A stretch of 61,909 bases of DNA from Eggerthia catenaformis OT 569 = DSM 20559 (GTDB taxonomy: Bacteria > Bacillota_I > Bacilli_A > Erysipelotrichales > Coprobacillaceae): contig NZ_KB446650.1 of assembly GCF_000340375.1 (NCBI RefSeq), positions 20,163 to 82,071 of the forward strand. Reading direction: 5' to 3'. Both the position numbers and the translations under genes were made by a program. Position 1 is the first letter of the stretch, and each line of letters begins with the position of its first letter. The notes under the pieces are model-generated. The model did no database searches, was not told the DNA's origin, and worked only from the letters and a program-made list of their open reading frames with translations. Positions 408 through 56,522 of this stretch are shown piece after piece.

Positions 408-683
408 TTATATAAATAACGGATCATCAATCTCTTTCCCCAATATTTCCTTATCTAGCCACCTTTCATGTCTGCTCTTAAAGATAATAACAGAATCTAA
501 TTCGTTGTCAATCTCATTTTCAATCTCTTTTTCCAACTTAAATAGGTTTGCCTTCGTTATCTCTCCTTCAAAAACAGAATTTTGTACATGTACAAGATAC
601 TGCTTACATAATTTAAAAACATTATTCCAACGTTTTCTTCCCATATCTTCCTTAGCAATATCATAAACTAAAATAGCATACAT
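408..683 (-). CDS. cas2: Cas2, CRISPR adaptation nuclease-fold protein
   Basis: Cas2 dimers bridge two Cas1 dimers in the complex that inserts new spacers. The 91-residue protein starts MYAILVYDIA, with the conserved Asp of beta-strand 1 (YDIAKE), and has the ferredoxin-like layout with the VQNSVFEGE strand typical of the family. A longer frame from 725 exists, but the ATG at 683 follows a GGTGG ribosome site and gives the usual Cas2 length. The gene starts one base after the cas1 stop codon, so the two are translationally linked. It is the last cas gene before the leader and array. Confidence 0.95.
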   Translation of the reverse strand: MYAILVYDIAKEDMGRKRWNNVFKLCKQYLVHVQNSVFEGEITKANLFKLEKEIENEIDNELDSVIIFKSRHERWLDKEILGKEIDDPLFI

Positions 684-684
684 A

Positions 685-1689: not shown

Positions 1690-1692
1690 CCT

Positions 1693-2190: not shown

Positions 2191-4493
2191 AATATTGCTT
2201 CTTCCTCCATACCTTTCTTACAATAAAAACCAATATCACTATTGTACCCATAATCATTTTTTGTTACTTTGATTTTTTCTTTACCGTTTAAAATAAATAA
2301 GTTTCCATCTACTTTATAGGCTTCAACAGGTAAAGTAAAATCTATAATTTGATCCTTTAATTCTATGAGTTTAAGTCTTAACATAGATTTCTCCTTTTTA
2401 CTATCAGATAATCTTAACTTACTATGAATCGCTTTGATTTCATCAATTATCTCCTTAAAAAATTCATATTTTTCGCAATACATTTCATTAGGTATTGCAC
2501 TAACTGACAATATATTTCTAAACTTTTCCTGGAATTCACTATTTTCTAAGTCCATTGGTGTTATATTTGCAAGACGTTTGTATCGCTCATTATAATCATT
2601 TATATATGAAGCATATAATATCCCTTTTTCTATATCTCTAATTCTTTCTGTAGTATAAAATTCATTTATCATAAATACTTTATCATTTTCACTCATATCG
2701 AAGTCTTTGCTGTTTTCTTTCCAATTATGTAATGCTTCTATTCCTAGGCTATATAATGAATTATAAATAAAACCATTTCTTCTTGTTCCTAAGCAAGCTT
2801 TCTTTTTACATAAAAGACTTGGCTCAATCTTTTCATAGACATAAATATTGTAGTCTTTTGCGTATTTTAACCCTTTTCTATTGCATCTACCCATTCTTTG
2901 AAACAATCCGCTCAAGTCAGAAAATTCAGTAAATAAAAAATCAAAATCTATATCCAAACTGGCTTCCACTACCTGAGTTGCAATCCATATAATATGCTTT
3001 TTTAATCCACTATCTCCATCTTTTGAAATTTCTTTTTCAAGTTTTTTACGATCTTTAACCGTAAACTTTGAATGAAGCATTTTTACCTGATCCTTATCTA
3101 TTTCAGATATAATCTGTGAATATATTTTTTGAGCCTTAGTTACTGTATTCACAACAATTAATATTTTAAGGCTATCAGCAAATTCATTTTTGTAATAAAA
3201 ACCAATTATATCCTCTGCATTTAAATAATTATCACACACTTTTACTTTATGTCGAATTCTTTCATTAAGAAATTGTTTTTCCTCTATTGTGATTTCTTTC
3301 TTAATTTTATTCCCTTCATTATCAAGCCCTATATTTAGCCAATCTCTAATTATTGGTGCTAAAGTTGCAGTAGTAATTGCAAATTTTCCTCCAGCATCAT
3401 TTATCACTTGCAAACCATAAATAATTGCGGCAAGTATATCCGGAGAATATGCTTGTATTTCATCCATTATAATCTTAGAATAACTAAATGTTGCCAAATC
3501 TGTTTCATATCCGGGGAATTTAAATACAAACCTAAATATTTGATCCGGTGTACAAATTGTTAAAGGATATGCTTTATTCCTTGTTTTCTCATAGTAATCC
3601 CAGAATGAAGTCATATCATCTAAATTTTTATCTCCAATATAAATACTTTGTGTTTCACCATGTAACAACCCAACATAATCTCTATAGTCATCACAATAAA
3701 AATCGCATCTGATTCTATCATACATAGCATTTATTGCAGTTCTAACAGGTAATACATAAAAGCCTTTGTTATCTCCTTGCCACAATAATGATGCTTCTGT
3801 TTTTCCAAGACCTGTTGATCCAACTAAGATCAGATTACTATTTGTATGCTTTCTAGCAAAATATTGCATATCATTCCATATATAACCTTTTTTATCAAGA
3901 CGTTTTAATAAATTATTATTAGGAATCTCTACGGGCAAATGAGCACTTGCAGCATAATCACATTTATGAAAAAAGCCTTTAAGAATAGCTTCTCTTAACT
4001 CAGGCGTATTACATAATTTTTCTAGATTCTCTCGCTTTCGAGTATTTGGCAATTTACAATTTAAATCAGAATTATTTATAAAAGTATCAGTATACTGTAT
4101 TTGTAGCAGATCTTTTCTTGTCAGTTCAAGAAAGTTATTAACATAATGATGATGATTAAGAACAATATTAAATATCAGATTATGATCAAGCCTATCAGGA
4201 ATCCTATCGATGTTATTGAACACATATAAAAAAGACAAAATATTATGCCCAACTTCTTTCGTATTATCAAACTTGATTCTACCATCACTAATAACTCTTT
4301 GCTGAAAGTTTTTATTCATTTTACCAATATCATGATACACACAACAATACTCAAGAAGCTCAAATTCATCATCACTTAAATAACACCGTAAATCATCCAA
4401 ACAACAAAGCAATTGATATGTATGCTCATATAATGATTCATCTGGCTTTGCTAAAAAATCATTATAATAATCTGGAATTAATTCTTTTTTCAT
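2184..4493 (-). CDS. cas3: Cas3, HD nuclease-helicase of type I CRISPR
   Basis: Cas3 is recruited by target-bound Cascade and degrades the invading DNA. The 769-residue protein has an N-terminal HD nuclease domain (VYHDIGKMNKNF, with upstream YEHTYQ and the later LNHHHY histidines). The superfamily 2 helicase follows: Walker A GSTGLGKTEAS, a DExH-like box MDEIQAYSP and motif VI QRMGRCNRKG. It is in frame over its whole length. The start is 8 bases after the cas5 stop, in the middle of the cas operon. Confidence 0.96.
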   Translation of the reverse strand: MKKELIPDYYNDFLAKPDESLYEHTYQLLCCLDDLRCYLSDDEFELLEYCCVYHDIGKMNKNFQQRVISDGRIKFDNTKEVGHNILSFLYVFNNIDRIPDRLDHNLIFNIVLNHHHYVNNFLELTRKDLLQIQYTDTFINNSDLNCKLPNTRKRENLEKLCNTPELREAILKGFFHKCDYAASAHLPVEIPNNNLLKRLDKKGYIWNDMQYFARKHTNSNLILVGSTGLGKTEASLLWQGDNKGFYVLPVRTAINAMYDRIRCDFYCDDYRDYVGLLHGETQSIYIGDKNLDDMTSFWDYYEKTRNKAYPLTICTPDQIFRFVFKFPGYETDLATFSYSKIIMDEIQAYSPDILAAIIYGLQVINDAGGKFAITTATLAPIIRDWLNIGLDNEGNKIKKEITIEEKQFLNERIRHKVKVCDNYLNAEDIIGFYYKNEFADSLKILIVVNTVTKAQKIYSQIISEIDKDQVKMLHSKFTVKDRKKLEKEISKDGDSGLKKHIIWIATQVVEASLDIDFDFLFTEFSDLSGLFQRMGRCNRKGLKYAKDYNIYVYEKIEPSLLCKKKACLGTRRNGFIYNSLYSLGIEALHNWKENSKDFDMSENDKVFMINEFYTTERIRDIEKGILYASYINDYNERYKRLANITPMDLENSEFQEKFRNILSVSAIPNEMYCEKYEFFKEIIDEIKAIHSKLRLSDSKKEKSMLRLKLIELKDQIIDFTLPVEAYKVDGNLFILNGKEKIKVTKNDYGYNSDIGFYCKKGMEEEAIFW

Positions 4494-4501
4494 ATTTGTA
4501 C

Positions 4502-5605
4502 CTAATTAAAATCCACAAGATATCCACCATCTTGATCAAAACCAATATTTATACTATCACTATCAATCATAAAACTTGAAGAATATAAACAAGGAATTCT
4601 ATTAAATACACGTGCATCATCTTTTATAGAATAATCTTTTGCAATGTAATAAATAGTTCCATCCACATTACTTCCATCAGCATTTATTTCTCTCCTATCT
4701 ATTTCTAAATGCTGGTAAAACTGAGTCTCATTAACTCTGTCAGCATTAATAAACATTGAATAGTTATTGGGGAGCATATGCTCTTCTTTCACGCTATCTA
4801 CTACTTCACAATATTCCATTTCTATTAGTTCAATAAAATCTTCACTTCTTCCTAAAGAGACAAAATCATATTTGTGATACATTATATCATTAAGAACTTT
4901 TTCATCTGACTTAATATGAATCACAAGTTCTACATCATATAATACTTCTTGATATTGGGGGCCTTTAACTAAAATTTTGAAATGATTATACGGATCGTCA
5001 TATTCCTTCTTTTTCTTATCTTCAAAGTCAGATTTAAGCTTTTTGATTTTCTTTTCTCCTTCATCAACTATTGCTTTTACATCATTCCACTGCTCACTAT
5101 TCTTTTCAAATGCCTTTTGTTTGTTCTTTAACTCTTTCTTCTCTAATTTCCATTTTTCTTCAGCAGATTTAATTGTATTCTTGTTAAAATCCTCTAACTC
5201 TTTACCCTTCTTTTTAAGCAGTTTATATAAATCTAACAGTTCCCTGCTTTTAACTTCTATCGTTCGTTCTTCAGAAAAGCTATTACCTGTCGCATTTAAA
5301 CTCTTTGCAACTTCTATATATCCTGTATTTAGTCTATTAGGGTCTTTCAGCCAAATAAGAATTCCCCTATCATCTTCTGTTCGATTCAGTAACCCATGAT
5401 TTACATATATTTCCTTTTGTAATGCACTATATTTCCCCTGAATCGATATTTCCATAGGATGATATTCAGTATAACCACAGGCATTATGTAAAGCTCCAAT
5501 AACTGTAGAATAGTTAGGAAGAGGGTATGTCATTCTATTATTTACCGTTCCCTCACAACTATATGAAGCCTTATTTTGTGTTAATTTAATTCGCAGAGCT
5601 TTCAT
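4502..5605 (-). CDS. cas5: Cas5, type I-B, with a coiled-coil insertion
   Basis: Cas5 caps the 5' handle of the crRNA in the type I-B Cascade. The N-terminus (MKALRIKLTQNKASYSCEG, then MTYPLPNYSTVIGALHNACG) is typical of the Cas5t group, as is a C-terminal RAMP half. At 367 residues it is about 120 longer than usual. The extra length is a Lys/Glu-rich, probably coiled-coil segment at about residues 110-205, rich in KKKGKELEDF- and EKKIKKLKSDFEDK-like sequence. It starts inside the end of cas7 (20-base overlap), so the two are translationally coupled. No frameshift is seen. Confidence 0.92.
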   Translation of the reverse strand: MKALRIKLTQNKASYSCEGTVNNRMTYPLPNYSTVIGALHNACGYTEYHPMEISIQGKYSALQKEIYVNHGLLNRTEDDRGILIWLKDPNRLNTGYIEVAKSLNATGNSFSEERTIEVKSRELLDLYKLLKKKGKELEDFNKNTIKSAEEKWKLEKKELKNKQKAFEKNSEQWNDVKAIVDEGEKKIKKLKSDFEDKKKKEYDDPYNHFKILVKGPQYQEVLYDVELVIHIKSDEKVLNDIMYHKYDFVSLGRSEDFIELIEMEYCEVVDSVKEEHMLPNNYSMFINADRVNETQFYQHLEIDRREINADGSNVDGTIYYIAKDYSIKDDARVFNRIPCLYSSSFMIDSDSINIGFDQDGGYLVDFN

Positions 5606-6479
5606 AATAAGCTCTCACTTCTTTATTTAAATCTTCAAAAAACTGCTCTATAGATACAGGATTTAATTCAGCTTTTATCTCTTCTTCATTTTCAAAATTA
5701 TATCCATCTAACAGTCCTACATGATAGCCTTCATTAATCTTCTTCTTTAAATCATTACCTATTTTAAGACTTAAATTATCCATTTGTACGACATTTTCAA
5801 AATAATGTGTTTTTCGCTTTCCGATACCACCCACAATAAATACTGGTTCTGCATTATCCATATTACCTTTAACTATCAATGATAATGATTTAACTGCGTC
5901 TAGCAATGCCTGTACTCTAAATATTTTTTCCTCTTTATCAGCTTGCTGTTCATAATTCTCATCAACGCCAATCTTATCCAAGTCTATAGTAATACTATAT
6001 CGTTTTAATGATTTATCATATTCATATTGATATGGCATAAGTCCTGCCTCTTTTGCTTTATCCTGTAAATTTATTTTATTTTCTTTTGCATATGCCTGTG
6101 CAAGATACAGGTTATTATGAAAGCGTGTTTCATTAATAAATGAATGAAAGGAAACAGCATCCGTTAAATAGAAAGAACTCTTTCTGATTTTTGTATTATC
6201 AGAAGTATTCATATATCCGCCTTCAAGAGCACGATTAGTGCTTGCATTTATATCCTGAGATACTGCTTTTTGATTTACTGATTTATCTACTTGAACCTTT
6301 AAATCATCATATAATCCACTTTGAACCATAATCGCATTTTTTAAGCTTTCTCTTGACCTAATAGCGTAAGATTTTCCATTACGATAAACTTTCTGTATAC
6401 TCCCAATATTTCCTAATCCTTCTCCGTAATTAGAAGTCATATTCGCAACTACTGTCAATGTTAGTGCCTTATTATTCAT
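5586..6479 (-). CDS. cas7: Cas7, type I-B Cascade backbone (DevR/Cst2 family)
   Basis: Cas7 forms the helical filament that holds the crRNA spacer. The protein reads MNNKALTLTVVANMTSNYGE, then a glycine-rich stretch and an RSRESLKNAIM segment, as in the DevR/Cst2 subgroup of type I-B. A longer frame starts at 6527. The ATG at 6479 is preferred because an AGGAGG site precedes it and it gives a canonical N-terminus of 297 residues. It begins just after the cas8b stop and overlaps cas5. Confidence 0.94.
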   Translation of the reverse strand: MNNKALTLTVVANMTSNYGEGLGNIGSIQKVYRNGKSYAIRSRESLKNAIMVQSGLYDDLKVQVDKSVNQKAVSQDINASTNRALEGGYMNTSDNTKIRKSSFYLTDAVSFHSFINETRFHNNLYLAQAYAKENKINLQDKAKEAGLMPYQYEYDKSLKRYSITIDLDKIGVDENYEQQADKEEKIFRVQALLDAVKSLSLIVKGNMDNAEPVFIVGGIGKRKTHYFENVVQMDNLSLKIGNDLKKKINEGYHVGLLDGYNFENEEEIKAELNPVSIEQFFEDLNKEVRAYYESSAN

Positions 6480-6480
6480 A

Positions 6481-7940
6481 CTACTCTTCCTCCTGATTTT
6501 TTTTAGAATTTTCTTGATTATAATCACCTAATGAGTTGATAAATTCATACGCAAGGTTTTTATTCCCTTCAAAATCTTTTATTAGGTCATGTAAAAAACC
6601 AAAACTCATTTGCGTGTAAGATGATAGCTGTAGCATAATCTCAATAAAGCGATCATAATCCTTTGCAACAATACAGCTCGCTAATTTCTGTCTATAACTG
6701 TTTGTTTTATTAGTCAATTTTTTTGACTTGAAATAACTTGTTACTTCTTTTGCTGATGCATATGCACCTCTTAAGCCTTTTTCATTTACCATGTTTTCCT
6801 CCAAATTCATAATATACTTATATAAGATAATATTTATTCTGATCAGCTGACTTATGCAAAATGCCCATCTTTTACCTTCCCGGTTTGTGCTTTCCTGCTT
6901 AAAAATACTTTCTATTGTGTCGTCCAATAATATATCATTTAAAATTGACTTTGTTACAATTTTTGTCATATCCATATAATAATTGTCAGTTATCCTTATC
7001 CTAATTTTAAGCAATTTTTCTAGATTGCTTAACCATTCAGTCATAATTCTGCCATCGGTAAGTTTCATGAATATTTCTATTGCTTTCTTTCTTATCATCA
7101 CTGTTTCATAATAATCATTGTCAATTCTTTTTAATATTATCTCAACATCTTGTCTAATAAACTTACTGCTTTTTAAGTAAGTATAAAATATCGTATTCCA
7201 AGAAGCACTTTTATCAGCAATATTATCATAATACTCTTTAACTTTATCGTTAGTTTCAATAAGATTTTTTATAGAACTATTATTATTTACAAATATCGCT
7301 TCTTTTCCTTTGGAAAAAGCAAATGGAATAAAATCAAATTCTATATAATCTACCGACACTGCTGCATGCTCATTAAAATTAAAACCGAGAGATCTCGTTT
7401 TTCTTCCTTTATCTACATAAAATCCTAGCAGTCTACATCTTTTTTGATGTTCTTTAGCGAAGTAAGAAATTTGTTCAAACTTACTATAACCATTCTTAGA
7501 ATTGATAAAAGTATTTAATATTATTTCAAAACGATTACTCTCTATTCTTCTTTTTATGTCTTCTAAAGTAAGATTACCATATTTTACACTTTTAAAAACT
7601 TTCTTCATTATACCATTAGCTGTAAATTTTTCATTAATACTTTTTTTATCTTCTTCAGATATTTGAGATTTATTATATAAATCAACTAATTTACAATGAT
7701 GCATCAAATGAACAAACCAATTTTCCACAAACAATAAATATTTTTCTTTTATTTCATCATTCGTTAAATCTATATCTTTAAAGTTATAAAATAATTTTCT
7801 TTTCTCTTTATGATATTCTGTACCATAAAAATCAAAAATCTAATCATGCCTAATGCTGTTGCAGAGAATCGCCAATCGGTTAGTTCTATACAATGATTAT
7901 AGGACTGACCATTTATCTCAAAATCATCTTCATAAATCAT
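6481..7940 (-). pseudogene. cas8b: cas8b (Cascade large subunit), frameshifted
   Basis: Cas8b recognises the PAM and starts target unwinding. The start ATG at 7940 overlaps the cas6 end by 11 bases and opens a frame reading DDFEINGQSYNHC, then LTDWRFSATALGMIRF, typical of Cas8b1/Cst1. That frame runs off into a stop soon after a run of five T (plus-strand AAAAA at 7834-7838). Adding one T restores IRFFDFYGTEYHKEKRKLF and continuity to the 417-residue downstream frame ending at 6481, for about 486 residues in all. It could be a real null, a slippage or phase-variable allele, or a sequencing error. Only about 35 N-terminal residues lie before the shift. Confidence 0.88.
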
Positions 7941-8670
7941 TTAAGGTCACCTCATTTTGAGTAATAATTTCAACCAATCCAAACCCGGAATTTTTCTTTG
8001 ATCCTATTCCGTTTTTCAAAATATGGTTAAGTATTTCTGCATCACCCTTTACTGCAAAAGTTCCTATAGTTGCCGGAATTTTTAATCCATAAGCTCTCAC
8101 TACAATTTTTCTTAAGTCATCAAAATGAAACATTAAACTTTTAATTTTTTCTTCGTGATAAGGTAGATCTTCTATCAATTTCCGCTCTAATTCACAAGCA
8201 AAATCATCATCACCAATGCTTACATACCAATCTTTACTATTATTTATATGCTTTTTTAAACAGATTGGTGACAAAACCTTAAAAATCGCAAAATTATCCT
8301 TTATAATTGTTTCTCTACTCATTTTGATGCTTTTAAGTTGCATTGAATTTCCGAGGCTTAAAGGAAATTCGATATTCTTCATCTCTAATAAACTAGAATA
8401 GTAAATGAGTGCAGTTTCAGGATCTGATATTTTTAATGTTATAACAAAAGTAGTATCATCAAGCTTAATAATATCTTTATTAAATTGAGGATTTTTAAAT
8501 CCAATTGACCACACTAAAGATTTTTTAATAGCTCCATTACTATACAATTCACTATAAAATATTCCATTTTGATATAATGAAATAGATTTTTTAAAAAAAC
8601 TGATAATCGTCCTTCGATAATCACTCTTAAAAACAGCTTCTTTCAACTGCATTTTTATGGTATACTTCAT
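7930..8670 (-). CDS. cas6: Cas6, pre-crRNA endoribonuclease
   Basis: Cas6 cuts the long CRISPR transcript within each repeat to make crRNAs. The 246-residue RAMP protein has the C-terminal glycine-rich loop GIGSKKNSGFGLVEI characteristic of Cas6. The start ATG at 8670 follows a TAGGAGG site. It is the first gene of the cas operon and overlaps cas8b at its end. Cas6 presumably remains functional, because the break is downstream. Confidence 0.95.
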   Translation of the reverse strand: MKYTIKMQLKEAVFKSDYRRTIISFFKKSISLYQNGIFYSELYSNGAIKKSLVWSIGFKNPQFNKDIIKLDDTTFVITLKISDPETALIYYSSLLEMKNIEFPLSLGNSMQLKSIKMSRETIIKDNFAIFKVLSPICLKKHINNSKDWYVSIGDDDFACELERKLIEDLPYHEEKIKSLMFHFDDLRKIVVRAYGLKIPATIGTFAVKGDAEILNHILKNGIGSKKNSGFGLVEIITQNEVTLNDL

Positions 8671-46316: not shown

Positions 46317-46350
46317 GTTAGTTGACATTAACTAACAAGAGGAGTATAAT
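46317..46350 (+). promoter_or_regulatory. Promoter of the tetR-ECF-MATE operon with overlapping operator
   Basis: A perfect inverted repeat, GTTAGTT-N6-AACTAAC (46317-46336), covers the -35 box TTGACA (46322-46327). TATAAT follows at 46345-46350, exactly 17 bases downstream. A regulator bound to the palindrome would exclude polymerase. A small hairpin CGACA-GTAG-TGTCG with a T run lies at the expected transcript start (46357-46376). Confidence 0.88.
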
Positions 46351-46403
46351 AAAATTCGACAGTAGTGTCGGTTTTTATTACGATATGAAAAGAGGTCTTT
46401 ATT

Positions 46404-46994
46404 TTGAAAGAAGAAAAACAAAAAGTTGGACAAATTAGAAAAAAAGAGATTCGAGAAGCTGCAAAGAAATGCTTTCTAAATAAAGGGTTTCAACTTACAA
46501 CAATGGAAGATGTTATCACAGAGGTAGGAATGAGTAGAGGGGGTGTTTATCATCATTATGCAAGTACAAATGAAATGCTTAAAGACTTAATGCTTGATGG
46601 TAATGATTATAGAAACAACTTGATAAATGAGTATTTAAAAAACAATCGAGGAAAAGATAAATATCAGCAAATGGGTGATATTTTGGTTGATAAGTCGCTG
46701 GCTGATACAGAATTGATGAGATTGTATACACTCCTTTTACAAGCAAAAAAATATAATCAGGATTTGGAAAAATTGTATCAAGAATTGAAACTTAATACGA
46801 CTAATGAGCTAAGTTTAATCGCCAAGCAGCTTGGAATTAAGGCGGATATATTTGGTGACGGTTTTTTAGTGAATTATATCAATGGATTGATATTAAGTTC
46901 TGAAGTTCTCTGTGCAAGAAATTCTTTTTCACAACATAAAAAATACATAAAAGAAACAATGGTAAATTACATTGTTGATATTGACAAGAGATAG
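46404..46994 (+). CDS. TetR-family transcriptional regulator
   Basis: 196 residues, TTG start after an AGAGG site. The N-terminal helix-turn-helix reads REAAKKCFLNKGFQLTTMED then VGMSRGGVYHHYASTNEM, standard for TetR. The C-terminal ligand domain is unlike any I recognise. It is the first gene after the palindromic promoter, so autoregulation is likely, and a related palindrome precedes the hydrolase operon at 51906. Downstream genes code for transport proteins, as is common for TetR repressors that sense an exported compound. Confidence 0.92.
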   Translation: MKEEKQKVGQIRKKEIREAAKKCFLNKGFQLTTMEDVITEVGMSRGGVYHHYASTNEMLKDLMLDGNDYRNNLINEYLKNNRGKDKYQQMGDILVDKSLADTELMRLYTLLLQAKKYNQDLEKLYQELKLNTTNELSLIAKQLGIKADIFGDGFLVNYINGLILSSEVLCARNSFSQHKKYIKETMVNYIVDIDKR

Positions 46995-47005
46995 GGAGGT
47001 TTAAA

Positions 47006-47593
47006 ATGAGTAAACGATTAGAAGTAAAGGATTTAATCAATATAGGATTATTTTCCGTATTAGGTTTTGTATTTATGATGATAGGATCATTTTTAGCAAT
47101 GGTTCCAGTTTTAATGCCGGTTGTTCCATTGGCACAAGGTATTTTGGTAGGACCGGTAAATATGTTGTATTCTACTAAAATTAAGAAAAGAGGAATGGTA
47201 TTTATTCAATCATTACTTATTGCATTAGTATATGTTGCTATGGGACATGGACCTTGGGCATTATTAACTGCTGTTATTGCAGGTGTTATTGCTGAAGTTA
47301 TTTTGAAATCAGGAGAATATACGGATGTTAATAAGGCAAGATTAGCATTTTCTATTGCTCCACTTTGCACAATAGGAAATTGGTTGCCAATTTTTATATC
47401 AAGAAATGAATATGTCAAGCAGATGTTAGAGCAAGGATATAATCAAGAATTTATTGATAAGATGCTTAGTGTAATGCCGAATTGGATTATTGTCGTAATG
47501 GCAATAGGTGGAATTATAGGAGCATATATTGGTTGTAGTATAGGAATGGCTTTCCTGAAAAAACATTTTAAAAAGGCTGGTATGGAAAAATAA
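47006..47593 (+). CDS. ECF transporter S component, MptD family
   Basis: 195 residues with about five membrane helices. It starts KRLEVKDLINIGLFSVLGF and contains AMVPVLMPVVPLAQGILVGP, then GHGPWALLTAVIAG, matching the MptD-type S components. S components bind the substrate inside the membrane; this one's ligand is unknown. It is 11 bases after tetR and directly upstream of the T and A components. Confidence 0.85.
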   Translation: MSKRLEVKDLINIGLFSVLGFVFMMIGSFLAMVPVLMPVVPLAQGILVGPVNMLYSTKIKKRGMVFIQSLLIALVYVAMGHGPWALLTAVIAGVIAEVILKSGEYTDVNKARLAFSIAPLCTIGNWLPIFISRNEYVKQMLEQGYNQEFIDKMLSVMPNWIIVVMAIGGIIGAYIGCSIGMAFLKKHFKKAGMEK

Positions 47594-47613
47594 GGATTCA
47601 TAAGGAGTTAAGG

Positions 47614-48315
47614 ATGACAATCAAACTTGATTTTCGTACAAAACTTTTTATGACAATAGTTCTTTCATATGTGATGGTTTTGGGCAATATTCAAGTAAAG
47701 TATTTCTTGCAAGCCCTTATAATATCCGTAATTCCGATAGTGCTTTTAATAAATACAAAACATACAAGAGTAGCTATTATTGGGATGGCTACTCTTGTGT
47801 TCGTTTATGGTGCTGATAGATTTTTAATGAAATTAGAATACAGTCCCTTGGTAGCGATTTTACTGATATTAGTAATGGTTGTTAAGAAAATACTTCCCGC
47901 ATTTTTAATGGGGAAATATACCATACTCACATCAAATGTAGGGGAAAGTATTTATTCATTGAAAAAAATGAAATGTCCCGATGAAATAGCAATACCATTG
48001 ACTGTGATGGTTCGTTTCTTTTATGCCGCAAGGATTGATTATAGCCAGATAAAAAAAGCCATGCGTTTGAGAGGACTAACGCTTAAAAAGTTAATAAAAA
48101 ATCCAATTCTATTATTTGAATATAGATTAGTGCCACTATTGATGTGTTTGTCTAAGACGGCAGATGATTTAACAGTATCCGCAATGACAAAAGGGTTAGC
48201 TGTTAATCAAAAGCGAACAAGTATTAGTGAATCTCGCATTGGTGGCATTGATTGCATATTTTTTGTGATAATGGTATGGGCAATCTATTTATATATAAGG
48301 GGTAAGTATGCTTAG
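47614..48315 (+). CDS. ECF transporter T component (CbiQ/EcfT type)
   Basis: 233 residues: MTIKLDFRTKLFMTIVLSYV, several membrane helices, and the two coupling motifs near the cytoplasmic helices, AMRLRGLTLKK and DLTVSAMTKGLA. Such T components join the S component to the ATPases. It overlaps the ATPase gene by 8 bases. Confidence 0.88.
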   Translation: MTIKLDFRTKLFMTIVLSYVMVLGNIQVKYFLQALIISVIPIVLLINTKHTRVAIIGMATLVFVYGADRFLMKLEYSPLVAILLILVMVVKKILPAFLMGKYTILTSNVGESIYSLKKMKCPDEIAIPLTVMVRFFYAARIDYSQIKKAMRLRGLTLKKLIKNPILLFEYRLVPLLMCLSKTADDLTVSAMTKGLAVNQKRTSISESRIGGIDCIFFVIMVWAIYLYIRGKYA

Positions 48316-49705
48316 TTTACAAAATTTAGTATTAAAGTTTGATGGAGAAAGCATATTAGAAAATATAAATCTAAATTTCAAACCCGGAGAGGTAACTGTT
48401 ATAACGGGACACTCAGGTACGGGGAAAAGTAGTTTGTTAAAAGTAATAAACGGCATTATTCCCGAATATGATTGTGGAGATGTAAAAGGAGATGTTTTAT
48501 ACAAGGACAAATCTTTATTAGGGATGAGTATATTAGAACGATCCAAGTTTATATCTACAGTGTTTCAAAATCCTAAAACACAATTTTATTGTATCAATTC
48601 TACAGATGAATTAGCTTTTCAATTAGAAAATAGGTGTATAGAAAGAAATTTAATTTTAGATAAAATACACTATTATTCAGATGTTTTAGGTAGTAAAGAT
48701 TTGTTGGACAAGAATATTTTTGAACTATCCGGTGGAGAAAAGCAGCTAATTGCTATAACTGCCAGTGGAATTTCAGAAAATGAAATTATTCTTTTAGATG
48801 AACCGTCCTCATCTTTGGATTATGAATCAATTAAGAACTTAAAAAGAGCTATTATTGAGCTAAAAAAAAGAAATAAAATCATAATCCTTGTCGAGCATAG
48901 ATTATTTTATTTGAAAGACATTGTAGACAAGCTGTGTGTAATAGAAAACAAAACTTTTAAAGAATACACGAAAGAATATTTTAGTGATGATTTTTTTGAA
49001 AGAGTTTCAGAAAAACATAATTTGAGAAATTTTAATGAAATTTTCAAGAGTGATTTCTTAAATAGACAATATGAAAAAGTAGATATGTTACAAAAAAATA
49101 CTCCATCAAACTTTGCTAATAGGTCAATAACATGTCTACATTTCAAAAAAACATATGATAAGAATACAATTTTTGATTTTAGTGTTTCTTTTAATACCGG
49201 GATAAATTTCATTATTGGACAAAACGGTGTTGGGAAAAGTACTTTTATCAATTTACTTATGGGAACTATGAAAGGCAAGGGAGAAGTTTTTTATAAGGGA
49301 GAAAAGCTCAAAAAACGGTACGAGAATATCTTTGCAGTCATGCAAGATGTTAATTATCAACTTTTCACAGAATCTGTATGGCAGGAACTTGGAACAGTTA
49401 CAAAACAGGATGATTTGAAAAATGAAGCCTTAAGAAAGGTACATTTATTTAATAAAAAAGAAATGCACCCAAGTTCGTTATCGGGTGGAGAAAAACAGAG
49501 ATTGTTGCTTGCTATGTCTATGGTAAGTCGAAAACCAATCATAGTGTTTGATGAGCCAACGAGTGGACTTTGCAAAATGCAAATGGATATTTTGATTGGA
49601 TTTTTAAACCAAATGGTAGAGCAAGGAAAAACTATTATTATAATCACGCATGATTTTGAATTTATAAAACAGTGCGATGGTGCAATATATGAATTTACAA
49701 AATAA
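48308..49705 (+). CDS. ECF transporter duplicated ATPase
   Basis: 465 residues with two ABC domains in one chain. Domain 1 has GHSGTGKSSLLKVINGI, LSGGEKQLIAITA and EIILLDEPSSSLD. Domain 2 has GQNGVGKSTFINLLMG, LSGGEKQRLLLA and IIVFDEPTSG. All motors of an ECF importer are therefore supplied without EcfA1/A2 genes. The domain pair and the adjacent S and T genes make the unit self-contained. Confidence 0.92.
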   Translation: MLSLQNLVLKFDGESILENINLNFKPGEVTVITGHSGTGKSSLLKVINGIIPEYDCGDVKGDVLYKDKSLLGMSILERSKFISTVFQNPKTQFYCINSTDELAFQLENRCIERNLILDKIHYYSDVLGSKDLLDKNIFELSGGEKQLIAITASGISENEIILLDEPSSSLDYESIKNLKRAIIELKKRNKIIILVEHRLFYLKDIVDKLCVIENKTFKEYTKEYFSDDFFERVSEKHNLRNFNEIFKSDFLNRQYEKVDMLQKNTPSNFANRSITCLHFKKTYDKNTIFDFSVSFNTGINFIIGQNGVGKSTFINLLMGTMKGKGEVFYKGEKLKKRYENIFAVMQDVNYQLFTESVWQELGTVTKQDDLKNEALRKVHLFNKKEMHPSSLSGGEKQRLLLAMSMVSRKPIIVFDEPTSGLCKMQMDILIGFLNQMVEQGKTIIIITHDFEFIKQCDGAIYEFTK

Positions 49706-49729
49706 ATATAAGTAAAGGAGAGCAATACG

Positions 49730-51085
49730 ATGAAAGAAGATATGAAAACACAACTTTTAACAAAAAGTCCTAAAGACTTGTTGTTTCAATTAGCTATTCC
49801 GGGAATTATAGGAATGGTTGTTATAGGACTTTATCCATTTATGGATGGAATATTTGCTGGGTGGATTATAGGGGATTATGCTATGTCTGCCATTAGTATA
49901 TCAATGTCTTTAACAATAATAAATGGTGGTATATCAGCACTTATTGGAGTTGGTAGTGCGTCAATATTATCAAGGGCTATTGGAAAGGGAGATAAAGAAA
50001 CAACGGATAAAATATTTGGAAATTTTTGTTATTGGGTAATTTTATTCTCTATAGTAATCACCGTATTAGGCTTGGTATTTGCACCTAATTTTCTTGACTT
50101 GGTAGGAGCAAAAGGGAATATTAAAGAACTGGGAGTTAGATATTTAAGAGTAGTTTTCTTTGGTTCAATATTTGTGAATTTTGCTCAAGCAGGTAATATG
50201 ACAATGCGTGGTGAAGGTGCATTGAAGCAATCTATGATGATTATGGGAGTAGGTGCTTTATTAAATATTATTTTAGATCCTATTTTTATGAAGTTAATGG
50301 GAGAGTATGCAATTGAGGGGGCAGCTATTGCAACTGTAATATCTCAAATTGTACAGGCGATATTAACATTTCACTACTTTTCAAAGAAAAGTGCTTTTGT
50401 TGGTATCCATAAAATTCAAAAGAGCAAGGCAATTTACAGTGAAATGTTTAGTATAGGAAGTTCGGCTATGATGATGCAAATTTTATTTGCAGTACAACAA
50501 ACATTTTTGTTCAAACAGGCTTTCGCTTATGGTGGAGATAATTGGGGAATTCTAATGTCTGCCACAATGAGACTTTATATGTTCTCATTTATTCCATTGT
50601 GGGGAATGAGTCAAGGTTTACAGCCTGTTATAGGAGCTAATTTTGGAGCAAAACAATATCAAAGAGTAAAAGATACTATGAAGATTTTCATGTATGGGGC
50701 AACAATACTTGCTGCTATTTCTTGGATACCATCCATGTTTTTCTCTGAAAAATTATTGTCATTGTTTAATGTGAGAAGTGAAATAATTGAAGCTGGAGTT
50801 ATGAACTTTAAATTGTTCTACTCTACTTTCATCTTGTATGGAATTATGATTATGACTCTTACATTTTTCCAATCTATTGGAGATGGGAAAAAAGCGAGCA
50901 TGATTGTAATGCTTAGACAACTGATTTTATTTATTCCGGCGATATTGCTATTGCCAAAGGTATTTGGAGGATTAGCAGTTTGGTGGGCTGAACCTATTGT
51001 AGATTTTAGTATGATTTTGCTCGGCTTGTTTTTTATGCTTAGCAGAATTAGAAAAATGGGAAAAGAAGAAGCGATAAATTGTTAA
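49730..51085 (+). CDS. MATE-family efflux transporter
   Basis: 451 residues, twelve predicted helices. It begins DMKTQLLTKSPKDLLFQLAI, then GMVVIGLYPFMDGIFAG and SALIGVGSASILSRAIGKGD, which is typical of DinF/NorM-type MATE exporters. It is the last gene of the TetR operon, ahead of a terminator. It would export a small molecule with sodium or proton flow; the ligand is unknown. An AAAGGAGAG site precedes the ATG. Confidence 0.92.
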   Translation: MKEDMKTQLLTKSPKDLLFQLAIPGIIGMVVIGLYPFMDGIFAGWIIGDYAMSAISISMSLTIINGGISALIGVGSASILSRAIGKGDKETTDKIFGNFCYWVILFSIVITVLGLVFAPNFLDLVGAKGNIKELGVRYLRVVFFGSIFVNFAQAGNMTMRGEGALKQSMMIMGVGALLNIILDPIFMKLMGEYAIEGAAIATVISQIVQAILTFHYFSKKSAFVGIHKIQKSKAIYSEMFSIGSSAMMMQILFAVQQTFLFKQAFAYGGDNWGILMSATMRLYMFSFIPLWGMSQGLQPVIGANFGAKQYQRVKDTMKIFMYGATILAAISWIPSMFFSEKLLSLFNVRSEIIEAGVMNFKLFYSTFILYGIMIMTLTFFQSIGDGKKASMIVMLRQLILFIPAILLLPKVFGGLAVWWAEPIVDFSMILLGLFFMLSRIRKMGKEEAINC

Positions 51086-51171
51086 GTATCTTATTATCCA
51101 AAGGTGAAAATAAACTATTAGAAAGGTTTGATATATGAATATTAGTTAGATGTAAGAAATGGGGGAGTAAG

Positions 51172-51264
51172 ATGAAAAATCTTTTTCATATAGAAGAAAG
51201 AAATAACAAAAAAATCTTCTCGCTTTATAGTTTCTTATTATCTCAAGCAACTAAATATATCTAA
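51172..51264 (+). CDS. 30-residue ORF after the MATE gene
   Basis: It encodes MKNLFHIEERNNKKIFSLYS and then FLLSQATKYI, after GGGGGAG. It lies between the MATE stop and the operon terminator. It may be the start of a lost gene or a genuine small peptide. The length gives no statistical support. Confidence 0.35.
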   Translation: MKNLFHIEERNNKKIFSLYSFLLSQATKYI

Positions 51265-51289
51265 GGAAAAGATAGATTCATTTCTTTTT

Positions 51290-51330
51290 GGAGGACTTTT
51301 TACGCCAAAGTGTAGAAGTCCTCCTTTTTT
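51290..51330 (+). terminator. Terminator of the TetR-ECF-MATE operon
   Basis: GGAGGACTT and AAGTCCTCC form a 9-base-pair stem with a long loop, followed by six T. Confidence 0.88.
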
Positions 51331-51374
51331 ATTCTCAAAAACAAAACAGAGAACTTAAAAAGGAGGATAACACG

Positions 51375-51791
51375 ATGGATAAGAAAGAATATTACCTTTA
51401 TGTAAAAGGCAAATCCGTACTTGTAAGTGAAAAAGTCTACAAAGCCTACTGGAAGATAACAGAGCATGAAAAGTATCTCCAAAGAAAAGATTGGAAGCAT
51501 AATGTTATGTCATTTTCAGCACTGGATCATGACGGACATTTTGTAGATAACATCATAGATGAAAAAATAGACTTAGAAAAAATTGTAGAAGTAAAAATGC
51601 AAATTGAAGAACTTCATAAAGCATTAAATACTCTCACAAAAGAAGAACGAGAGTTAATGGAAGCCATCTTCTACAAAGAAGAAAGTCTAAGGTCAATCAG
51701 CAGAAGAGAGAAAGTTACACATCAAGCAATCAGCGGGAGGAGGGATAGGATTTTAGAAAAACTGAGAAAGATTTTAGAAGATAAAATCTAA
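51375..51791 (+). CDS. Sigma-70 region-4-like regulator of mobile elements
   Basis: 138 residues from the ATG at 51375 (AAAAGGAGG upstream; the frame to 51288 overlaps the terminator). It starts KKEYYLYVKGKSVLVSEKVY and ends with a helix-turn-helix, SLRSISRREKVTHQAISGRR. Such small sigma-like proteins are frequent in conjugative and mobilizable elements of Bacillota. The target promoter is unknown. A terminator follows 10 bases later. Confidence 0.8.
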   Translation: MDKKEYYLYVKGKSVLVSEKVYKAYWKITEHEKYLQRKDWKHNVMSFSALDHDGHFVDNIIDEKIDLEKIVEVKMQIEELHKALNTLTKEERELMEAIFYKEESLRSISRREKVTHQAISGRRDRILEKLRKILEDKI

Positions 51792-51800
51792 AAAAATTTG

Positions 51801-51836
51801 GAAAGGTTAAGTATCAAAAAAGGTGCTTAACCTTTC
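51801..51836 (+). terminator. Terminator after the sigma-like gene
   Basis: GAAAGGTTAAG/CTTAACCTTTC, an 11-base-pair stem, followed by TTTG. Confidence 0.8.
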
Positions 51837-51905
51837 TTTGTAAAATACTGTTATGTAACACAAAAAACCGATATAGAAAAAATGGTGTGAAAATGATAAA
51901 ATATT

Positions 51906-51925
51906 ATTAGTTAATATAGACTAAC
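51906..51925 (+). promoter_or_regulatory. Second TetR-type operator, upstream of the hydrolase operon
   Basis: ATTAGTT-N6-GACTAAC has the same 7-6-7 layout as the palindrome at 46317 and differs from it at one position per arm. It lies 23 bases before the ATG at 51948, beside AT-rich -10-like sequence (TAAAAT/TATTAT at 51897-51907). Binding by the same TetR protein is inferred. Confidence 0.65.
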
Positions 51926-51947
51926 TCATGCTTGTGAGGTGTCCAAA

Positions 51948-52694
51948 ATGGAGTATATTGATATAAATAAAGACAAGAAAAGAATGGTTTTGCTCATACA
52001 TCCAATGCTTGCTTCTGCTGAGGGAATGAAAAAGTTAATTGCCGATAACATTGGAAATGAGTATAGATACATTATTCCAAATTTGTCTGCTCATGGTAGA
52101 TTGATTGATAAAAAGTATTTATCTGCAAGACAAGAAAGTGAAAATTTACATAATTATCTTAAAGAGAATGACATTAGAGAAATTTCTTTAGCCTTTGGAG
52201 CATCAATAGGCGGTGTAGTGTTACTAGAATTGTTAAAATACAAGGATATAAAGATAGTTAAAGCCTTATTTGAGGGCTGTAGTTTATGTCAAAATGCGAG
52301 TGTTTTAGAGTTTATCATAAGAAATATTGTTCTATATGAACGAAAAAAAGCTATTAAAAATAGTGACTCAGCTAATAGAAAAATTATAAGCATATATGGA
52401 GAAACAATGGGACGAATGATGGCTGAAAATCTAATCAGAATAGATAAACAAAGCATTAAAAATATCTGCCATGATTGTGCATTTGTAGATCTTCCCAAGT
52501 TATCAGAAGCAGAACAAAAGAGGTGCATATTCTGTTATGGATCTAAAGAAGTTAATTTAAAATATGCAAAGAGAGTTATTTCAAAAGAATATCCATATGC
52601 AGCGTTAAGAATATGGAAGGGACAAAACCATTGTACAAAGATAACAACGAATGTAGAAGGGTATTGCAAAATGATAAAAGCTGAGATTGATTAA
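51948..52694 (+). CDS. Alpha/beta hydrolase, first gene of the cargo operon
   Basis: About 248 residues from the ATG at 51948, preceded by GAGGTG; a GTG nine bases earlier is possible. The fold signs are VLLIHPMLASAEGMKKLI, the nucleophile elbow AFGASIGGVVLL (GxSxG) and the C-terminal His in WKGQNHCTKITT. It resembles the hydrolase at 53372 in overall layout. The substrate is unknown. Confidence 0.82.
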   Translation: MEYIDINKDKKRMVLLIHPMLASAEGMKKLIADNIGNEYRYIIPNLSAHGRLIDKKYLSARQESENLHNYLKENDIREISLAFGASIGGVVLLELLKYKDIKIVKALFEGCSLCQNASVLEFIIRNIVLYERKKAIKNSDSANRKIISIYGETMGRMMAENLIRIDKQSIKNICHDCAFVDLPKLSEAEQKRCIFCYGSKEVNLKYAKRVISKEYPYAALRIWKGQNHCTKITTNVEGYCKMIKAEID

Positions 52695-52723
52695 AACATA
52701 TTGTTGAAAAGAGGGTGTTAGCA

Positions 52724-53341
52724 GTGAATGATAAAAGCAATAAAAAGTTTTGGAATAAATTCGCCAAGCTGTACGCTCCTTTTATGAAGAAGGATAAAGG
52801 AGTTTATGATAATGTTTGTGAGTATATTCGTCCTTACTTGAATAGAAATATGAACGTACTTGAACTTGCTTGCGGTTCAGGTCAGTTATCATTTAATCTT
52901 TCAAAATATGCTAAAAATTGGATTGGGACAGATTTTTCGGAACAGATGATTTTAGAAGCAAGGAAGCGTGGAGAAAACGAAAACCTTACCTTTGAGGTAG
53001 CTGACGCAACCTCATTATCTTTTTCTGATGGTGAATTTAATTGCGTTGTAATTGCTAATGCACTTCATATTATGCCGGAGCCGGATGAGGCAATGAGAGA
53101 AATATACAGAGTATTAAAACCTAATGGCATTTTGTCTGCTCCTACTTTTCTATGGAAAGAAGGGACCCAAAGTAAATTCAAAAAATGGATAATGTCCGTT
53201 GTGGGATTTAAGATGTATCAAGAATGGAATAAAAAACAATTTAAAGATTTTATTGAGAAGCATGGATTTTCAGTAGTTGAAATGAATTTGATACATGGAG
53301 GGCTTGCACCCATCGGCGTTATGATTGCTTATAAAAAGTAA
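52724..53341 (+). CDS. Class I SAM-dependent methyltransferase
   Basis: About 205 residues from the GTG at 52724 after GAGGGTG. The SAM motifs are NVLELACGSGQLSFNLS (motif I), WIGTDFSEQMIL (motif II) and CVVIANALHIMPEPDEAMRE. This is the UbiE/Coq5-like fold used for small-molecule methylation. It is 29 bases downstream of the first hydrolase in the same operon. Confidence 0.88.
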   Translation: MNDKSNKKFWNKFAKLYAPFMKKDKGVYDNVCEYIRPYLNRNMNVLELACGSGQLSFNLSKYAKNWIGTDFSEQMILEARKRGENENLTFEVADATSLSFSDGEFNCVVIANALHIMPEPDEAMREIYRVLKPNGILSAPTFLWKEGTQSKFKKWIMSVVGFKMYQEWNKKQFKDFIEKHGFSVVEMNLIHGGLAPIGVMIAYKK

Positions 53342-53371: not shown

Positions 53372-54139
53372 GTGAACATACATGAGTTTGGAGCTGATAA
53401 AAATAAAATAATTGTGTTGATTCATCCTTCATTAGTCATGTGGGACTATTTTGAATACATTTTATCTATACTTAAAGAAGAGTATCATATTATTGTTCCT
53501 GCACTTCCCGGATATGATGAGGAAAATCCAAACGAAAATTTTACAAGTGTAGAAGAAATTGCAGATAATTTATTAGGATGGCTGAAAGAACATAAAATTG
53601 AGAAAGTTGATCTTTTGTATGGTTGCTCTATGGGCGGTTCTATCGCTTTAAAAATGTTCTCCAATCACGGAATTAAAATAAGGAACATTATTTGCGATGG
53701 AGCAATAACACCATATCAGCTTCCTTGGATTGTTACAAGAATGATTGCCATAAGAGATTTTCTTATGATTTCTATAGGTAAAATTGGAGGACTAAAGCTT
53801 CTTGAAAAATCATTTTCTACAGATGAATACAGCGAAGAGGAATTGAAGTATGTTGCTAAAGTCCTTAATTTTATTAGTTATAAAACGATATGGAGAACAT
53901 TTGAATCTTGCAACAACTATGTTATGCCAAAGAACGTGTCAGAACATAGCGGTCGTATTCAATATTGGTATGGTGATAAAGAGTCTAAAGCCCGTGCATG
54001 GGATATCAAATATATGAAAACTTATTTTCCAAATACTGAGTTTATTAAATTTGAAAACATGGGTCATGGCAGCATGGCAAGTCTTTATCCTGTGAAAATG
54101 GCTAATCAATTCAGAGATTTAATGGAAGTTAAGAAATAA
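53372..54139 (+). CDS. Alpha/beta hydrolase, second of the cargo operon
   Basis: 255 residues, GTG start after GGAGGAG. It shows IVLIHPSLVMWDYFEYIL, LPGYDEENP, the elbow LLYGCSMGGSIALK (GxSxG) and the His in FENMGHGSMASLYP. It is distinct in detail from its neighbours, so not a recent duplicate. Role unknown. Confidence 0.85.
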   Translation: MNIHEFGADKNKIIVLIHPSLVMWDYFEYILSILKEEYHIIVPALPGYDEENPNENFTSVEEIADNLLGWLKEHKIEKVDLLYGCSMGGSIALKMFSNHGIKIRNIICDGAITPYQLPWIVTRMIAIRDFLMISIGKIGGLKLLEKSFSTDEYSEEELKYVAKVLNFISYKTIWRTFESCNNYVMPKNVSEHSGRIQYWYGDKESKARAWDIKYMKTYFPNTEFIKFENMGHGSMASLYPVKMANQFRDLMEVKK

Positions 54140-54177: not shown

Positions 54178-55116
54178 GTGAGTGTTAAATATAAATTAAC
54201 GGAATTTTTATTTCGTCATACTGTAAAACCTATGATGAAAAAAGCAATAAAAAATCCGGATGAATATTTTGCTAAACAAGAAAAGAAACAGAAATCTAAA
54301 CTCCCTCTTGAAAAACTTCATAAATCTTATGATTTTGAAGAAAAGTGTACAAGCGGAACTTTGTATTATGCCGTCAAACCAGAAGGTAAAGTGGCAAATA
54401 GGCTTGTGTTATATTTCTTTGGTGGAGGATATACCATTCCGGGAGATTCCGGTGATTTTGAGTTTGCCCAAGATATGGCTAATCAAAGTCAGGCTGAAGT
54501 GTGGCTTGTATGGTATCCACTTTTTCCAAAAGCAACCGGCTTGCAAATTATTGAAGCAGGTCTAAACGTTTATAGCGAGGCACTTAAGGTGTTTAATGCA
54601 GATGATATTATATTTTTTGGTTTATCAAGTGGAGCAAGCCTTGCACAAAATATATGTTTGCATATTCTTGAAAACGACATGAGATTATCAATGCCAAAAA
54701 GATTGATTATGCACTCGCCAACCTTTCGTATTCCTCCGACTAAAGAACAGATGAAAGAGATGGAGAGACTTGATAAGTTTGATTGCATTATTCCGGCTTG
54801 CTACATGAAAGAACAAGATCAAGTAATGCAAAGAATAAATTTAAATAATGTGGAATATATGAAATCGCCAATTGAGTACTCATGGAAAGGGCTACCTGAC
54901 ATGTATATCATTTATGGTTCTTATGAAGTGTTGATAGCAGAGCTGCCGGAGGCAAAAGAAAAAGCTAAAATGGATGGCGTGGTTATGAAAACATATATAG
55001 GAGAGAGAATGATGCATACTTGGGCGGCGGCAGGATTTTTACCTGAGGCAAAGGAAGTAAGAAGCAACATATATGCCGTAATACGAGGAGATAAAGATGA
55101 TAGCTTTCTCTTGTAA
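54178..55116 (+). CDS. Alpha/beta hydrolase / esterase of the HSL type
   Basis: 312 residues, GTG start after AAGGAGG. Oxyanion-hole region VLYFFGGGYTIPGD (a variant of HGGG, with Phe in place of His), the nucleophile elbow FFGLSSGASLAQNI, an Asp region near DMYIIYGSYEVLIAE, and the His in RMMHTWAAAGFLPE. The HSL-like layout suggests ester or lactone hydrolysis. It is the third hydrolase in a row. Confidence 0.82.
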   Translation: MSVKYKLTEFLFRHTVKPMMKKAIKNPDEYFAKQEKKQKSKLPLEKLHKSYDFEEKCTSGTLYYAVKPEGKVANRLVLYFFGGGYTIPGDSGDFEFAQDMANQSQAEVWLVWYPLFPKATGLQIIEAGLNVYSEALKVFNADDIIFFGLSSGASLAQNICLHILENDMRLSMPKRLIMHSPTFRIPPTKEQMKEMERLDKFDCIIPACYMKEQDQVMQRINLNNVEYMKSPIEYSWKGLPDMYIIYGSYEVLIAELPEAKEKAKMDGVVMKTYIGERMMHTWAAAGFLPEAKEVRSNIYAVIRGDKDDSFLL

Positions 55117-55171
55117 TATTCTACAGGTAGCTTTCAGAAGAAAAGTGGATATTGTGGGGTGATTGATAATT

Positions 55172-55669
55172 ATGTATATGACGATACTGCTTGCAGTTAT
55201 TATGATGATTGGATTGTTCTTATTGCTGTGGGCAGGAGTTGGATTTATTCAAAACAAAGACTTCTTTTCTTCGTGTCCTAAAGAAGTGTTTGATGTTATT
55301 GAGCAAAAGGAAAAACGCTTTCGTGGTCAGAGTTTAGTTGGATGGATATTAGCTATTATTGCAATACTATTCATGGGGAGTTCAATTATCGTTGGTGCAG
55401 TGGATGGTGTTCAAAATAACTTTACTTACATTCAGTTTTTCATTAGATTTCTGATGATACTTCTTTTGCTGAAAGCCTTTGATATTGTATTTTTTGATTG
55501 GATACTTTTGTGCAATCGAGGTTTTAGTTTTTTTGAACATTATTATCCGGAAGTGGTAGATAAGCTTAGTCCTAAACTCTTTGGATATAACAAAAAGGAA
55601 CACATTATTCAAGTGTTATTTATGATTATCGGATCGTTAGTCATTGCATGGATATGTACATTATTTTAA
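55172..55669 (+). CDS. Integral membrane protein of the cargo operon
   Basis: About 165 residues with four hydrophobic helices (near residues 5-25, 55-80, 90-115 and 145-165). A polar loop before the second helix reads CPKEVFDVIEQKEKRFRGQS. The start could also be TTG at 55163. I do not recognise the family. Its place between an esterase and a methyltransferase suggests a membrane partner of that pathway. Confidence 0.65.
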   Translation: MYMTILLAVIMMIGLFLLLWAGVGFIQNKDFFSSCPKEVFDVIEQKEKRFRGQSLVGWILAIIAILFMGSSIIVGAVDGVQNNFTYIQFFIRFLMILLLLKAFDIVFFDWILLCNRGFSFFEHYYPEVVDKLSPKLFGYNKKEHIIQVLFMIIGSLVIAWICTLF

Positions 55670-55703: not shown

Positions 55704-56522
55704 TTGAAAGAAATAGAAATGCAAGAAAAAATAAAACCCATTTTGAATGGTGCTGCGGAAACGATGCTTCAGAGTTTTTATGCAAGAGCACAATATTCCA
55801 AGAGCAAAAGACATAAATTTTATGATGCCAAAGCGGTGGAATTGGTTGAAAAAATTGATTACGATTTTACTGTCGCCACAAATGATTCCCTTATGAGTTA
55901 TGGCGTGATTGCAAGAACGCTTGTATTTGATGAACTGGTAAAAGAGTTTATTGACGAAAATCCAACCTGTACAGTCGTAAATATTGCTTGTGGACTTGAC
56001 ACGAGATTTTATCGAATGGATAACGGACAAATCACATGGTACAATGTGGATCTGCCTGAAACCATTGAAGTAAGAAATCAGATTTTTGCAGAATCCGGCA
56101 GAGTTTCAAACATCGGTATTTCAGCAACGAATTCGGCGTGGGCAAAAGAAATAAAAGCAGATGGGAACATTCTGTTTATCATTGAGGGATTGTCAATGTA
56201 CTTGACACGGGAAGACAACGCCCAAATGCTCCGAATTATTCGAGAGAATTTTGACAATGCGTATGTTCTTATGGAGTGCCTGTCAAAAAGGTGGGTAGCG
56301 AAAGAAAATGTTGAAAAGTCCATACAAAAAACCGGAGCAAAATTCATATTTGGAGCGGATTCCTTTGATGATATTACGGATATTGCAAGAGGTTTCCGTA
56401 GTGTAAAGGATGATGATATTACAAGGGGGATGTCTGCTTTATTTCCTGTGCTTAAGCTTATTAACTGGTTGCCGATTGCTCACAAACTATCACAGAAAAT
56501 ATTGATATTTGAGAAGGTGTGA
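55704..56522 (+). CDS. Class I SAM methyltransferase, leucine-carboxyl-methyltransferase-like (PF04072)
   Basis: 272 residues, TTG start with TAGGAGGTG upstream. It shows MLQSFYARAQYSKSKRHKFY, the SAM site CTVVNIACGLDTRFYRMDNG and WYNVDLPETIEVR, then FIIEGLSMYLT. This is the PF04072 pattern of O- or carboxyl-methyltransferases that act on small molecules. It is the last gene of the operon. It is unrelated to the first methyltransferase beyond the fold. Confidence 0.88.
   Translation: MKEIEMQEKIKPILNGAAETMLQSFYARAQYSKSKRHKFYDAKAVELVEKIDYDFTVATNDSLMSYGVIARTLVFDELVKEFIDENPTCTVVNIACGLDTRFYRMDNGQITWYNVDLPETIEVRNQIFAESGRVSNIGISATNSAWAKEIKADGNILFIIEGLSMYLTREDNAQMLRIIRENFDNAYVLMECLSKRWVAKENVEKSIQKTGAKFIFGADSFDDITDIARGFRSVKDDDITRGMSALFPVLKLINWLPIAHKLSQKILIFEKV

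Follow-up and report, generated by a model that had tools for sequence, protein, structure and literature searches.

The mobile element in Eggerthia catenaformis OT 569 = DSM 20559 that is considered here carries two cargo operons, each preceded by a copy of nearly the same palindrome, which raises the question of which regulator reads these sites and to which signal it responds. An earlier note on this DNA had taken the TetR-family regulator of the first operon to control both, and to coordinate how a single ligand is imported, exported, and chemically modified. In the following, the window is the whole stretch of 61,909 nucleotides that was analysed, and all genes and sites of the two operons lie on its forward strand.

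The first operon encodes the TetR-family regulator, with a TTG start (46404..46994; PF00440, 3e-11), the S component of an ECF transporter, which belongs to the Trep_Strep/MptD family and is an EqbH homologue (47006..47593; PF09605, 4e-61), a CbiQ-family T component homologous to EqbI (47614..48315), a fused double ECF ATPase homologous to EqbJ (48308..49705; 1e-80), and a MATE efflux transporter (49730..51085). The second operon encodes alpha/beta hydrolase 1 (hyd1; 51939..52694; MenH-like by a weak match), a SAM methyltransferase (mt1; 52715..53341), alpha/beta hydrolase 2 (hyd2; 53372..54139), alpha/beta hydrolase 3 of the Abhydrolase_3 type, which is steryl-acetyl-hydrolase-like (hyd3; 54178..55116), a membrane-like protein without Pfam match that recurs in hydrolase clusters (mem1; 55163..55669), and an LCM-family methyltransferase (mt2; 55704..56522; PF04072, 1e-18). 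Between both operons lies the gene for a small protein of the mobile element with sigma-70 region 4 (51288..51791). Elsewhere in the window (408-8670), translations judged by eye resemble Cas2, Cas1, Cas4, Cas3, and Cascade-type CRISPR proteins, encoded in one operon.

Both palindromes of the earlier note, GTTAGTT-N6-AACTAAC at 46317-46336 and ATTAGTT-N6-GACTAAC at 51906-51925, were found exactly at these positions. The putative iron-type box 1 (GTTAGTTGACATTAACTAAC; 46317..46336) is a perfect dyad with 7-bp arms and, as had been proposed, covers the -35 of the tetR-ECF-MATE promoter (46322..46350), in which TTGACA (46322-46327) and TATAAT (46345-46350) are separated by 17 bp and agree with the consensus hexamers at 12 of 12 positions. 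The putative iron-type box 2 (ATTAGTTAATATAGACTAAC; 51906..51925) is indeed a copy with one base changed per arm and, taken alone, a poor palindrome with unpaired outer bases. It starts 3 bp past the extended -10 (TGaTAAAAT) of the hydrolase operon promoter (TAGAAA-17-TAAAAT; 51874..51902) and ends 13 bp 5' of the first hydrolase ORF. At zero mismatches, RTTAGTTN6RACTAAY matches the window at these two boxes only, and no match was present in 100 dinucleotide-shuffled windows, whereas at two mismatches the pattern is close to background (16 matches vs 7.7 expected). The latter count is what would be expected if two AT-rich dyads resembled each other by chance; the shuffles at zero mismatches speak against this, and conservation of the box before homologues of both operons, described below, refutes it and leaves a coincidence with practically no probability.

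The host genome (G000; 1.94 Mb) contains exactly three copies of the 20-bp operator, i.e., the two in the window and ATTAGTTAATTTAGACTAAC at C5:5749-5768 (-) (L008), which precedes another hydrolase operon. On this other element of the same contig, it is flanked by a serine recombinase and a hydrolase pair. In that element, the hydrolase pair behind the third copy is followed by two membrane-like genes, and a strict GTTAG-N6-CTAAC box occurs at L008:5330-5345, 53 bp 5' of the hydrolase. Because the promoters of the window hydrolase operon, L008, and its counterpart in genome G045 have approximately 50 bp in common, a duplicated promoter that travels with the hydrolases was considered; this explanation holds locally, but distant hydrolase promoters have only the box in common. 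The 20-bp register was likewise dropped as the functional form, because relatives of the TetR and homologues of hyd1 keep a shorter register, GTTAG-N6-CTAAC; the 20-bp form is one variant of it. In this N6 register each window site deviates from the core by one mismatch (box 2 reads GTTAA-N6-CTAAC at 51910-51925), and the core is strict in relatives of both operons. Besides, GTTAATTAATATAGACTAAT, one mismatch away from the hydrolase operator, was encountered at L013:5676-5695 in another element, where it separates mobA from the recombinase and no hydrolase was apparent, and degenerate ATTAGTTA-type dyads that possibly represent a relic box lie 3' of the MATE gene and 5' of the sigma-like gene (window 51141-51160, L019:13738, and L020:6821).

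Nine relatives of the window TetR (86-97% identical), encountered in Streptococcus, Peptostreptococcus, Anaerococcus, Criibacterium, Eubacterium, Oribacterium, Fusobacterium naviforme, and two Clostridiales, each head a homologous tetR-ECF-MATE operon. Box 1 is kept over the -35 in all nine loci, even where the DNA further upstream differs. Loci that reach far enough continue with a sigma-like gene and then mobilisation genes, and no hydrolase operon was seen in any of the nine. The hydrolase operon recurs at 90% identity in G045, another genome of the taxonomic order of the host, with TAAAATGTTATTAGTTAATGTAGACTAAC upstream; it adjoins a different TetR-ECF module there, and a 43% paralogue of the window TetR is encoded elsewhere in that genome. 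Among 16 distant hyd1 homologues (25-54% identity), ten carry the box 18-36 bp 5' of the start codon, six in strict form and four with one outer base changed, compared with 0 strict and on average 0.02 relaxed boxes in shuffles. A TetR is encoded in just one of these neighbourhoods. The search for the palindrome before homologues of both operons, which the earlier note had suggested as a check, was thereby run, and the nine tetR-ECF-MATE loci as well as the 90% identical hydrolase operon of G045 keep it; therefore, one regulator very probably coordinates both operons. Viral contigs contained no relative of the window TetR, none of hyd1, and no exact copy of the 28-bp operator, and a plasmid search with the window TetR returned distant, partial matches over at most 40% of its length.

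The distribution of the box in the host genome bears on the nature of this regulator. All ten strict boxes are located 1-107 bp before an ORF, and their targets are two ABC exporter-type transporters, an ABC ATPase, a DUF3793 protein, a ZnuA-type lipoprotein, a Trep_Strep ECF-S component, NrdI, an Fe-containing alcohol dehydrogenase (Fe-ADH), a small ORF, and the hydrolase of the third element (hydA). Moreover, the divergent feoA/dtxR promoter is filled by three one-mismatch boxes. The box is thus common to the window sites and to iron-homeostasis genes of the same genome (feoA/dtxR at one mismatch, nrdI, ZnuA, DUF3793, and Fe-ADH). Since the relaxed form, RTTAG-N6-CTAAY, is near chance genome-wide (25 occurrences vs 19 in a reversed control), mainly strict boxes were counted. 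The literature on Trep_Strep and DUF3793 yielded nothing useful. A weight matrix derived from 33 iron-type promoter sites, none of them a tetR or hydrolase-operon site, ranks 51910 first and 46317 second among all window positions. The score of box 1 (12.7) is low relative to the training minimum of 15.2, and chance alone would yield approximately 0.8 scores above 12 per window; moreover, the training sites were picked by the GTTAG-N6-CTAAC motif, which renders the matrix not fully independent as a test. The argument for box 1 is therefore carried by rank and conservation, and not by the unexceptional score.

The same core is the target of EqbA, the DtxR-family repressor of the equibactin siderophore locus on ICESe2 of Streptococcus equi, which binds the box in vitro (PMC3672683). 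The target of EqbA, AACTATTATTGTTAGATGTATCTAACAATAATAGTT with palindrome centre GTTAGATGTATCTAAC, equals GTTAG-N6-CTAAC and has been described at a single promoter; the gel shift requires the palindrome and responds to Fe2+, Zn2+, and Mn2+, the protein is without SH3 domain, and the position of its metal-site Cys has been discussed (PMC3672683). Siderophore-dependent iron uptake in S. equi requires eqbHIJ (PMC3672683). The window tetR-ecfS-T-A-MATE operon is homologous to eqbHIJ-KL-MATE (ATPase, 1e-80; S component, 2e-14; MATE, 1e-114) and has the equibactin-type order of Trep_Strep S, T, and fused double ATPase, then MATE. The EqbKL (YbtPQ-like) pair between ATPase and MATE is absent in the window and present in L012 and L014, and an EqbKL-like pair still occupies this place in the counterparts of the window operon from S. 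pseudoporcinus and Anaerococcus degeneri. Genome G614 has an eqb locus (eqbB promoter 95% identical) in which eqbA adjoins the box and the genes downstream match the window operon in order, i.e., TetR, Trep_Strep S, T, double ATPase, EqbKL pair, and MATE. The MATE gene of this locus consists of two separated open pieces (L156:6692-9495) and may therefore be interrupted. The host contains a second complete module (L172:3767-12184; G000 C6) that closely resembles the S. equi eqb importer block; it consists of TetR, ECF S-T-A, an EqbKL-like pair, and MATE, and ATAACTWAGTTAT palindromes precede tetR as well as ecfS. As far as sequence can tell, a ferric siderophore would be the likeliest ligand of the window importer, which presumably transports it.

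A candidate repressor is encoded in the host by a DtxR-family gene (G000 C1:29987-30358; 124 residues) that is divergent from feoA. Its product contains the Fe_dep_repress and Fe_dep_repr_C domains and retains the Met and Cys positions characteristic of the iron-type metal site of DtxR (EMYL, ACRxEH), of which the Cys is common to EqbA. A strict box is present in 6 of the 27 promoters of feoA-linked DtxR orthologues, vs 0 in 200 shuffles, and the closest orthologues all have strict or near boxes; that it is missing from the other 21 counts against the iron reading. S. pseudoporcinus has box 1, yet a single DtxR-family protein (~220 aa) and no EqbA-like match, which counts against this reading too.

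For the TetR itself, a different site is available. A second conserved dyad, TCGAC-N6-GTCGG at approximately +1 of the tetR-ECF-MATE promoter (46356..46371) and followed by T5, is a candidate for either a TetR operator or an attenuator hairpin. Among 13 promoters from the window TetR clade (down to 33% identity), none has lost either the box or YYGAC-N6-GTCRR at approximately +1, and because both are always present, conservation within the clade alone cannot say which of them the TetR binds. At zero mismatches the +1 dyad occurs once in the window (46357-46370), and none precedes the hydrolase operon. It could be an attenuator hairpin or terminator, given its predicted fold of -9 kcal/mol (z -2.9) and its T5 tail, but L062 is without a T run behind the dyad and in L067 both arms change together, which argue against a pure terminator. 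More plausibly, the TetR would use this separate CGAC-N6-GTCG dyad. Two further clades of TetRs associated with such modules have clearly different candidate operators of their own, i.e., TATACC-N3-GGTATA, in a clade where the box lies 3' of tetR and 5' of ecfS, and ATAACTWAGTTAT, in a clade where this palindrome precedes both tetR and ecfS. The box is not confined to the window TetR clade: it is found in hydrolase and feoA loci without TetR and before TetR genes of unrelated clades that are approximately 15% identical to that of the window. To explain this pattern, one common iron repressor is a simpler assumption than the convergence of many TetRs on a single operator.

We consider it likely that both palindromes are operators of a DtxR-family iron repressor of the EqbA type. 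The model of the earlier note, in which both palindromes are bound by the element's TetR so that import and export of its own ligand are coupled to the modification of that ligand, draws on the position of box 1 over the tetR operon promoter, its retention in all 13 clade promoters, and the near copy on the same element. We regard it as unlikely, since the box also precedes feoA/dtxR, nrdI, ZnuA, tetR-less hydrolase clusters, and TetRs with just 15% identity, the G045 hydrolase operon with its box 2 adjoins a different TetR (despite the 43% paralogue elsewhere), the window TetR clade has its own second dyad, and the known binder of the core, EqbA, is not a TetR. Hence, of the original claim, the common regulator is retained and its identification with the TetR is given up. 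That the products of both operons import, export, and chemically modify one ligand is a reasonable guess; the transporter's ligand as the signal finds no support.

Dual occupancy appears improbable to the same degree. In this case, box 1 would accommodate a DtxR-type repressor as well as the TetR on overlapping segments, and box 2 would be recognised by either or both of these proteins. The 20-bp form of box 1 does contain two overlapping N6 registers and GTTAG boxes recur beside many TetR genes, but no case was found of the box tracking TetR identity, and separate TetR-type dyads exist. A slightly lower probability still is assigned to a manganese-type (MntR) DtxR-family protein as the reader of the box. 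Boxes before the ZnuA-type lipoprotein and nrdI, and a second DtxR-family protein in the host (C3:232835), would suit such a protein, but feoA, Fe-ADH, the equibactin homology, and the Met/Cys metal ligands indicate iron, and induction of nrdI is compatible with iron starvation as well.

For the preferred iron repressor we infer the following scheme, which includes binding by the DtxR-like protein, the response to iron, the place of TetR action, and the substrate of the enzymes. When iron is plentiful, an Fe2+-loaded dimer would occupy the -35 of the tetR-ECF-MATE promoter and a position just 3' of the -10 of the hydrolase promoter, blocking both operons; when iron is scarce, both would be open. 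Iron boxes read by a DtxR-type repressor imply that both cargo operons probably switch on together at low iron. The first would supply an equibactin-type ECF importer and a MATE exporter. The three alpha/beta hydrolases, two methyltransferases, and membrane protein of the second might plausibly process the imported ferric siderophore, a role weakly suggested by the common box, co-location, and distant enzyme clusters that include ATC-hydrolase (thiazoline-ring) family proteins and ABC partners. The repressor is probably the host feoA-linked DtxR-like protein, and the mobile element would therefore plug into the host iron regulon, while the element's TetR would add a second, separate layer for the first operon only, most likely at the +1 dyad.

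The box probably belongs to the known DtxR/EqbA kind of iron box, with a regulon that appears broader and more mobile than described. What looked like a private TetR circuit would thereby become one branch of an iron regulon extending over chromosomes and mobile elements in the order of the window host and several Clostridia. The EqbA-type box was seen in front of genes for iron uptake, many ECF modules, and a family of enzyme clusters with no assigned function, for which it offers a testable role in iron starvation and a motif for finding more of them. Tentatively, and with a probability that we place below even, the element could be a mobile siderophore-piracy package induced by iron starvation. 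It would combine the ECF importer with an independent cargo of hydrolases and methyltransferases for the breakdown or remodelling of imported siderophores, possibly of the thiazoline type; as the same box would place both under the DtxR-type repressor of the recipient, they would join the host iron regulon on arrival.

Among known systems, LhaSTA is an iron-regulated ECF importer with a Fur box and heme as substrate (PMC7299338). The window module likewise combines an ECF S-T-A importer with, as proposed here, iron control; it differs in the box and in the presumed substrate. In autoregulated transporter operons of the QacR/AcrR type, tetR is the first gene and a dyad lies at the promoter. The window tetR similarly heads a transporter operon with a dyad at its promoter, but this dyad is common to a second operon and not specific to the window TetR, for which the different dyad is the better operator. 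The DtxR/IdeR iron box, TTAGGTTAG-S-CTAACCTAA, resembles the present box in its TTAG...CTAA half-sites, its overlapping dyads, and its iron-dependent repressor, whereas the spacer is 1 in the former and 6 (or 10) in the latter, and the present regulator is without SH3-like domain. In the equibactin locus, it is the NRPS genes that the box regulates, and a separate TetR with ATAACTWAGTTAT palindromes belongs to the eqbHIJ block. In the window, by contrast, the box is situated on the importer operon itself and on the hydrolase operon, the element showed no genes for siderophore synthesis, and the repressor would be host-encoded. The two systems nevertheless share the GTTAG-N6-CTAAC core, an SH3-less DtxR-family repressor, a mobile element as carrier, and the combination of ECF (EqbHIJ), MATE, and TetR genes in one locus, which in the equibactin case includes EqbKL.
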